DNA from: Bacteroidota bacterium
Lineage (GTDB): Bacteria > Bacteroidota > Bacteroidia > B-17B0 > Aurantibacillaceae
Assembly (NCBI GenBank): GCA_013298715.1
Contig: JAAFIQ010000001.1
Location: 372,001 to 436,000 of the forward strand
DNA: 64,000 nucleotides
Direction of reading: 5' to 3'
A program made the position numbers and the translations under genes. This document shows positions 1-11,764 of the stretch, one piece after another. The notes beneath the pieces are model-generated. The model did no database searches and was not told where the DNA came from. It worked only from the letters and a program-made list of their open reading frames with translations. Numbering within the stretch: position 1 is the stretch's first letter; each line of letters starts with the position of its first letter.

Positions 1-220
1 TGCAAAGTTTTTTGAACTTTTTTGAGAAAATCCTTACAGATAAAAATAGATTTTTCTTTGCGTTTTTAGCTTCATAAAAATTAACTGACTCGTCTTTAGC
101 CCTGCTTGCCGCAGACAGGTCAGCTTGAAGTATTTCTATACATCTTCACTTCGCTGCCTGTGCCCGCCGAAGGCACGTAGGCAGGTCAATTCAGTTAATT
201 TTTATACATTTTGAGTGAAC
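1..220. repeat. MITE-like palindromic repeat, copy 1 (left end outside window)
   Basis: This non-coding stretch closely matches 11114-11306. Both copies share a perfect 15-bp inverted repeat, ATAAAAATTAACTGA at 74-88 and its complement at 191-205, around a GC-richer core. The core has a nested hairpin at 155-183 (TGCCTGTGCC pairing with GGCAC and AGGCA around a 2-nt bulge). The right end is TTTTGAGTGAAC at 209-220, which is the terminal inverted repeat of copy 2. By comparison with copy 2, about 67 bp of the left end lies before the window. There is no coding capacity, so if mobile it must be moved in trans. Confidence 0.75.
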
Positions 221-332
221 TTTAAGTAGATTTTCTCGCCTAATGTAAAACTAAGCATACAATAAATGTAATTTGTTATCGTGTGTAATTGACATTAACC
301 ATTCATGTTTAAACGAAGCCTAATTTGTTAAT
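221..332. other. intergenic, nothing recognised
   Basis: This AT-rich spacer lies between the repeat and the 3' end of cysS. I see no ORF, strong hairpin or RNA gene in it. Confidence 0.5.
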
Positions 333-10943: not shown

Positions 10944-11046
10944 AGCTGTAAAGGTAGTGATATAAGTTTTACACTTTGATTAAAATATTGTGTCTAAATA
11001 AGTTTTTACCAAGATATCTTTTTCAAGCAGTAACTGCTCGACTATT
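10944..11046. other. intergenic upstream of dusB
   Basis: AT-rich DNA without ORF or obvious promoter consensus. It forms the left flank of the MITE-like element. Confidence 0.4.
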
Positions 11047-11310
11047 TAGGGTTCACTCAAAAACGTAAATATGACAATTGATAAGAGATGTAAGGGTTAA
11101 ATCCATTTTTAGGGGCAAAGTTATTTAACCTCTTTTGAGAAAATCCTTACAGATAAAAATAGAGTTTTATTTGTGTTTTTGGCTTGATAAAAATTAACTG
11201 ACTCGTCGTTAGCTCAGCTCGAGGTATTTCTATACATCTTCACTTCGCTGCCCGTGCCCGCCGTAGGCAGGTCGATTCAGTTAATTTTTATACATTTTGA
11301 GTGAACCCTA
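11047..11310. mobile_element. MITE-like element, copy 2 (complete)
   Basis: A 264-bp non-coding unit bounded by a perfect 16-bp terminal inverted repeat: TAGGGTTCACTCAAAA at 11047-11062 and its complement at 11295-11310. Inside is a second perfect inverted repeat of 15 bp (11187-11201 and 11277-11291) around a GC-richer hairpin core. The right-hand 190 bp is closely related to bases 1-220. Immediately after the right end, TAGGGTTTGCTCATAAAC (11312-11329) resembles a diverged further copy of the terminal repeat. No transposase is present in the window. Confidence 0.75.
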
Positions 11311-11390
11311 TTTAGGGTTTGCTCATAAACTCAAAAATCTTTTTTCTTTTAACTTTTTTTCTTGAATAAAAAAAGTTACAAAAAAATCAA

Positions 11391-11555
11391 GTCGCCGCAA
11401 ACGCCCACCCGCACTTAATTTTTCTTGAAAATTCAATCGACGTGAATTTTATTTTGCTAAGAAAATTCTCGAAAGCAAAATAAAAAAACGGCAAGCGACC
11501 TCGATGAATTTTCAAAGAAAAATTAATTCTCGCCTTCCTAGCCCCGAGCGGCGAC
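11391..11555. repeat. large imperfect palindrome (about 165 bp)
   Basis: Nested inverted repeats share one centre. GTCGCCGC at 11391-11398 pairs with GCGGCGAC at 11548-11555. An arm of about 26 bp at 11414-11439 pairs with 11500-11526 with small mismatches. TTTTATTTTGCT at 11446-11457 pairs with its perfect complement at 11473-11484. The ends are GC-rich in an otherwise AT-rich region. It is unrelated to the MITE-like element next to it. It could be a cruciform-forming mobile repeat or a structured RNA. Confidence 0.65.
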
Positions 11556-11764
11556 AGACCAGCGCGCAAAATCCGTCATCGTACAAAACGTAAAAAAAGT
11601 AATCACTTTCAATAAATTAATACCAGCCTTTTTTATGAATTTACTGGCTTTTCTGCTATTTTACCTTACAGAATTTTAAATATTTCAACTCTAAGTCTTG
11701 CTATTGTTGACTTTTTGGTTATTGAATAAGCCCTATTTAAACTTTCTAATAATGGAGTTTGGAC
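11556..11764. other. intergenic downstream of rng
   Basis: Bases following the palindrome up to the 3' end of the ribonuclease gene. AT-rich, no ORF, no clear terminator seen. Confidence 0.4.

Follow-up and report, generated by a model that had tools for sequence, protein, structure and literature searches.

The window analyzed here is a 64,000-bp stretch of a Bacteroidota contig (C1, 372001-436000), in which a non-coding repeat at 11047-11310 is flanked by genes for Dus and RNase E/G, each encoded on the minus strand. No ORF of at least 90 aa in the window ORF list overlaps it. Two inverted repeats reported in the initial annotation, a perfect 16-bp terminal pair (11047-11062 and 11295-11310) and a perfect 15-bp inner pair (11187-11201 and 11277-11291), were both read directly in the window sequence. 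The same annotation had proposed a unit of 264 bp. The unit was indeed a non-coding repeat, but comparison of copies placed its boundaries at 11049-11308, which gives an element of 260 bp with the 14-bp terminal repeat GGGTTCACTCAAAA; this element was named family A. The outer TA on each side is target DNA and not element, because it is part of a 6-bp duplication, TATTTA. A near copy had been placed at 1-220. This copy (L021) does have its left end outside the window, running 64 bases past the edge, but its last base is 222. The copy at 11049-11308 lacks one of two 19-bp palindromic modules, module A. No transposase gene is found nearby, as had been stated.

A second non-coding repeat, family B, lies directly to the right of element A and has TATTTA on both sides, and the order in the window is TATTTA-A-TATTTA-B-TATTTA. 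The family B end, GGGYTTGCTC, resembles that of family A. Three other nearly full-length copies of family B (L373, L371, and L369) were found among the source-genome loci compared, and the L371 copy has TAAATA on both sides. A scan for the family B end with up to 2 mismatches gave nine sites, two of which were family A ends.

Table 1. Features of elements A and B and of the copy at the start of the window
Feature	Position	Strand	Basis
Second copy of element A, with both 19-bp modules	1-222	+	Genome search, copy alignment
Right target-site duplication TAAGTA of the window-start copy	223-228	.	Copy flanks
Left target-site duplication TATTTA	11043-11048	.	Window sequence and copy flanks
Element A proper, 260 bp, non-coding	11049-11308	+	Ends from comparison of 39 full copies
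Left terminal inverted repeat GGGTTCACTCAAAA	11049-11062	+	Sequence, copy comparison, end scan
Inner inverted repeat, left arm; stem of right-hand hairpin	11187-11201	+	Sequence, fold, copy alignment
19-bp palindromic module B; block present or absent among copies	11253-11271	+	Copy alignment
Inner inverted repeat, right arm	11277-11291	-	Sequence, fold, copy alignment
Right terminal inverted repeat	11295-11308	-	Sequence, copy comparison, end scan
TATTTA, right duplication of element A and left duplication of element B	11309-11314	.	
Second MITE-like element, family B, 419 bp, end GGGTTTGCTC	11315-11733	+	Sequence, end scan, copies
TATTTA, right duplication of element B	11734-11739	.	

Copies and target sites in the source genome

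The source genome (4.01 Mb in 46 contigs) was searched by DNA match, and the best 40 of 95 candidates were scored. At least 43 match rows were obtained for the family A unit. The many further copies expected in the initial annotation were thus borne out: the unit occurs at about 40 places rather than at two only, and the ends of the other copies coincide with the terminal repeats rather than departing from them. Thirty-nine full-length copies of 222-286 bp were re-examined with their flanks, and all of them start and stop at the GGGTTCACTCAAAA terminal repeat or a close variant. Three further copies are partial, and an insertion of about 1.5 kb interrupts one of them (L040). Relics are also present, as are forms of 150 bp that have lost internal sequence (L102 and L103). 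When one mismatch was allowed, GGGTTCACTCAAAA had 91 sites in the source genome, compared with 2 for the reversed pattern.

The flanking duplications for which a check had been proposed were found at 27 of the 39 full copies, as identical 6-mers, mostly TAnnTA, outside GGG...CCC. The commonest were TAATTA (8/27) and TATTTA (5/27). A perfect duplication was absent from the other 12 copies, among which there are tandem or nested copies and shifted ends. Family A is short and without a transposase gene, has a terminal inverted repeat that marks the boundary of the repeat, is dispersed in many copies, and has a target-site duplication of constant length, all of which are criteria for a MITE. It is a real element of this ordinary kind, and it is well delimited.

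The duplicated 6-mers were compared between related copies. Five copies that are 97-99% identical (L014, L015, L016, L017, and L020) have five different 6-mers, and the 6-mer was common to 5 of 60 copy pairs with at least 95% identity, while it was common to 49 of 351 among all pairs of the 27. Since near-identical copies have different 6-mers, the duplication is made afresh at each insertion and not inherited, which points to a DDE-type transposase and argues against a tyrosine recombinase. A recombinase of the latter type might otherwise move the element, with the ends and TAnnTA serving as a core site with a 6-bp spacer; in one genome of the same genus (G034), a tyrosine recombinase gene (PF00589) does occur in the region of a diverged end. 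However, although the left and right 6-mers agree in most copies, they are not carried along from copy to copy, and such change is the opposite of what is expected of a recombinase carrying its core sequence. The G034 recombinase gene lies, as judged by eye, beside a tRNA-like sequence. Within 10 kb there is just one more end-like site, an arm of a small hairpin (L333, 5361) without TAnnTA, and a search of 40 genomes of the genus gave relatives of the ORF between the recombinase gene and the end at the G034 ends only. We give this explanation almost no credence.

In G034 the recombinase gene (L333, 6165-7333) is split between two frames and is likely to be the remnant of an island. The ORF beside the diverged G034 end was rejected as a gene: Pfam gave nothing in it, it is similar only to G034 ends, and the similarity was taken as non-coding because DNA identity is 73% and protein identity 57-59%.

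Related empty sites were found for three copies. The joined flanks of L016, L023, and L034 align across the junction to uninterrupted copies of other repeats, with best alignments of 89% over 55, 81% over 103, and 84% over 104 bases, respectively; the flank-match rows for L001, L003, and L022 are not empty sites, since each arose from a copy matching its own neighborhood. Many copies, fixed ends, fresh 6-bp duplications, related empty sites, and a bias toward the 3' ends of genes all support the MITE reading of the initial annotation. Family A is thus very probably a MITE whose 14-bp ends are recognized by a transposase supplied in trans, which makes a 6-bp staggered cut at TAnnTA; within this model, we infer the DDE chemistry and the action in trans. 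Such a transposase would join the element to the target at the cut, and the 6-bp stagger would cause each insertion to duplicate 6 bp of target DNA.

Two other repeats were seen beside family A copies. Another dispersed repeat of the source genome is a target for family A copies, in the flanks of L004, L100, L107, and L109. At L026, a short palindrome, GGGTTGAAACAACC, bounded by TAnnTA, lies directly on each side of the family A copy.

Gene context, fold, and palindromic modules

Gene context was counted for 41 copies with genes on both sides, where a gene was an ORF of at least 100 aa and one copy at a contig edge was dropped. Convergent genes flank 26 of these copies, tandem genes 14, and divergent genes 1. 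As background, 26 of 157 TAnnTA sites in gaps fall in convergent gaps (binomial p 2e-11); this background is small (71 gaps from the window and 12 other source-genome loci) and not fully independent, and its loci were chosen for end-like sequences, with one (L366) overlapping the window, so that part is counted twice. The duplication overlaps a stop codon, with the stop kept, in 8 of 39 copies, compared with 11 of 198 background sites (p 0.001). A stop can survive insertion because the TAnnTA of the site is followed by the G with which the element starts. This is seen at the start of the window, where the gene to the left of L021 encodes a 254-aa iron-sulfur protein (PF13085 and 4Fe-4S families) and its ORF ends in a TAG made of the duplication and the first G of the element; the gene to the right encodes cysteinyl-tRNA synthetase. 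When the element was removed in silico, 3 of 39 sites were inside an ORF of 109-189 aa. Not every site is therefore harmless, and a few insertions may have interrupted genes. Under the MITE model, insertions would survive mainly behind genes, and insertion into a TAA or TAG stop could keep the stop codon.

As a single strand, the unit is predicted to fold into a terminal stem and a right-hand hairpin. The RNA fold has -74.5 kcal/mol (z -4.35) and the DNA fold -39.5 (z -5.31), and in each case none of 200 dinucleotide shuffles folded as well, which, together with the match rows in the source genome, dismisses chance as the origin of the inverted repeats. In an alignment of 41 right halves, 36 of them distinct, the cells of the named stems are paired in 96.6% of cases, compared with 27-44% when the stems were slid. 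Four stem pairs are changed on both sides. The slid control also reached 4, and compensatory change is therefore weak evidence for RNA.

The initial annotation had offered a structured RNA or a transcription boundary as an alternative, and the unit might be retained because it acts where genes end, either as a structured RNA or by bounding transcription in both directions. The convergent position of 26 of 41 copies, the pairing of the inner stems, the doubly changed pairs, and the strong fold could all be counted for it. However, the unit has no Rfam match and no terminator-like site, the doubly changed pairs are matched by the control, and the distribution is sparse, a match being present in 3 of 59 relatives when 12 candidates were scored in each genome. 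Loss of harmful insertions would also produce the gene-end bias. The alternative gained no support from the Rfam and terminator searches, and we consider a function of this kind quite improbable.

The inner hairpin is flanked by two 19-bp palindromic modules, each of which a copy either has in full or lacks altogether (e.g., L007, L011, and L036). Among the 39 copies, 16 have only module B, 11 have both, 9 have neither, and 3 have only module A; two of these three (L039 and L041) look like A/B fusions in the alignment. The four module states need 18 changes on a tree of the remaining columns, compared with a shuffled mean of 19.3, and so hardly follow ancestry as drawn in this tree, which is well supported in just 5 of 36 inner branches. 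The 19-mer sites listed are all in family A copies or a relic (L101), save one in a family B fragment (C27:6484).

Elements with the same end and the search for a transposase

A diverged copy of the unit was found in three of the 59 other relatives, all three from the same genus. In 395 genomes drawn from the class, TANNTAGGGTTCACTC was present in 6, the source genome included; by coordinates, two of these six are G064 and G065, described below, and the one site in G217 resembles a coding region. When GTDB was scanned for TAGGGTTCACTCAAAA, at least 96 stretches were obtained. Sites of TAGGGTTCACTC numbered 38 in G063 (LF-bin-173), 23 in G064 (RIFCSPLOWO2_12_FULL_35_15), 54 in G065 (BWOrgControl_Nextera59_MAG1), and 8 in G066 (Dive96_bin10.128), with 0-2 for the control. 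Paired ends in G063-G065 delimit elements of 284-542 bp and two longer ones of 1473 and 1758 bp, and the TAnnTA flanks are identical in 11 of 19 element pairs. G034 has 10 left and 8 right ends, identical within each set, at a distance of about 120 bp from the ends of contigs, so that the interior falls outside the assembled sequence compared; the 6-mers of all 8 right ends have partners among the left ends, across contigs. Multicopy elements that have this end and duplicate 6 bp thus occur in four other Bacteroidota genomes (G034 and G063-G065).

The elements of G063-G065 and G034 have an 18-19-bp end, GGGTTCACTCAAWAAGTC, in common. The family A unit had no match at E 0.01 to the G034 ends or to the elements sampled from G063-G065 (1-2 elements per genome). 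Weak interior likeness, in comparisons run with the low-complexity filter off, was seen between G063 and G064 (75% over about 59 bases), between the right end of G034 and G063 (74% over 39), and between family B and G064 (68% over about 100 bases), and some of the non-A elements may therefore share ancestry. Because these other Bacteroidota elements share ends and not the interior of the unit, we infer that mobility in trans, as first suggested, is the best explanation.

The initial annotation had also called for a transposase gene bearing the ends of the element, and none was seen in any of the sets searched. End scans of the source genome, a draft assembly, did not reveal any transposase gene enclosed by the two ends, and neither did the end pairs of the 96 GTDB stretches, for 63 of which ORFs were listed, few of these being compared with families. 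In viral contigs, the end-specific patterns gave 0 and 7 stretches; 33 viral stretches with one end had no exact paired end within 4 kb and no transposase copy. Plasmid and phage records had no match to the unit. Parent elements of MITEs can be lost.

Two longer elements were considered as autonomous copies and rejected. L205 (1758 bp) has both ends and a TAATTA duplication, but its transposase is of the IS110 family: at 2346-4103 of L205, comparison with L218, which has an uninterrupted copy, shows an IS110-family element nested within a MITE of a Bacteroidetes MAG. QMITE2 of Coxiella likewise has an IS1111/IS110-type element inside a MITE, in an unrelated host; this likeness to L205 is drawn from the description in the accessible text (PMC10969869). 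None of the ORFs listed for L240 (1473 bp, both ends) is transposase-like by eye.

The leading named rival for the parent is the ISAzo13 family (PF07592), a Bacteroidota branch of which would have to cut with a 6-bp rather than a 3-bp stagger. At L206, about 20 bp separate a GGGTTCACTCAAAA end from the 3' terminus of the gene for an ISAzo13-family transposase (E 9.7e-114); this end, the only one on its contig, was selected through identity of the 14-bp sequence. At L231 a 62.5%-identical fragment of an ISAzo13 transposase stands beside the end. The 14-bp end thus adjoins a transposase in Desulfobacterota, and two other ISAzo13-like copies, both on plasmids (ISStsp1 and Microvirga), also start with GGG, while a third (L375, viral) has a listed inverted repeat, giving candidate ends, without a GGG start. 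However, the shared end is not independent evidence, because both groups were found through the same exact end, and the duplications differ. Records of the Desulfobacterota type have exactly TTA in 8 of 11 distinct element pairs, ISStsp1 has TTA, and Microvirga has TAA, compared with the 6-bp TAnnTA of family A. Both flanks are available in 9 Bacteroidota rows of the same flank table, and the duplication is 6 bp in 5 of these and exactly 3 bp in none. Unpaired ends in a Salinivirgaceae MAG, also of the Bacteroidota, mostly follow CTTA-like left flanks, which argues against a clean split by phylum. According to the accessible text of one source, MITEs usually keep the duplication length of the parent (PMC6382973), and this counts against ISAzo13. 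For an ISAzo13-derived MITE, the shared end is thus present, having been selected for identity, and the 3-bp duplication is not. In tblastn, no ISAzo13 gene was found in the Bacteroidota stretches compared. Plasmids gave 166 ISAzo13 records, with no Bacteroidota among the first 60 of 166; phages gave none, and viral contigs gave 1. An ISAzo13 transposase as the mobilizer is therefore rather unlikely. ISAzo13 is a known enzyme family with ends of this kind, but, because its cut length differs and MITEs usually match their parent, it is no more than a candidate parent of the 6-bp class.

We tentatively consider that a widespread, undescribed group of Bacteroidota transposases, with ISAzo13-like ends and a 6-bp cut at TAnnTA, might move the end-only families A, probably B, and those of G034 and G063-G065, and that the choice of target and the first base of the element might allow insertion into stop codons with the stop preserved.

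Described MITEs of the Bacteroidota share some features with family A. MITECca01 of Cardinium is also short (about 240 bp), non-coding, multicopy, and IS-like at its ends; in the accessible text of its description, its parent, ISCca4 of the IS982 family, is in the same genome and has similar ends (PMC9769881), whereas no parent was found for family A. BrickBuilt and 464/PgRS of Porphyromonas gingivalis are likewise Bacteroidota MITEs with similar ends and a differing remainder; as far as their accessible description goes (PMC4596501), their ends are IS5-like (GAGACCTTTGCA) with duplications of varying length, whereas family A has GGGTTCACTC and 6 bp. No description of the GGGTTCACTCAAAA end or of the TAnnTA duplication was found in the literature within the search, outside which most subscription papers lie. 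A text search for GGGTTCACTC gave, among the matches listed, titles unrelated to bacterial mobile elements.

Family A is a clean bacterial MITE family: its end is exact, its duplication is 6 bp long, it markedly prefers the ends of genes, and it contains interchangeable 19-bp palindromes. Several Bacteroidota genomes have elements with this end but show no parent, and finding the enzyme is a well-posed task for which the ends, the target, and candidate genomes are now given. Stop-codon-compatible insertion would help to explain how elements of this kind attain a high copy number at low cost.
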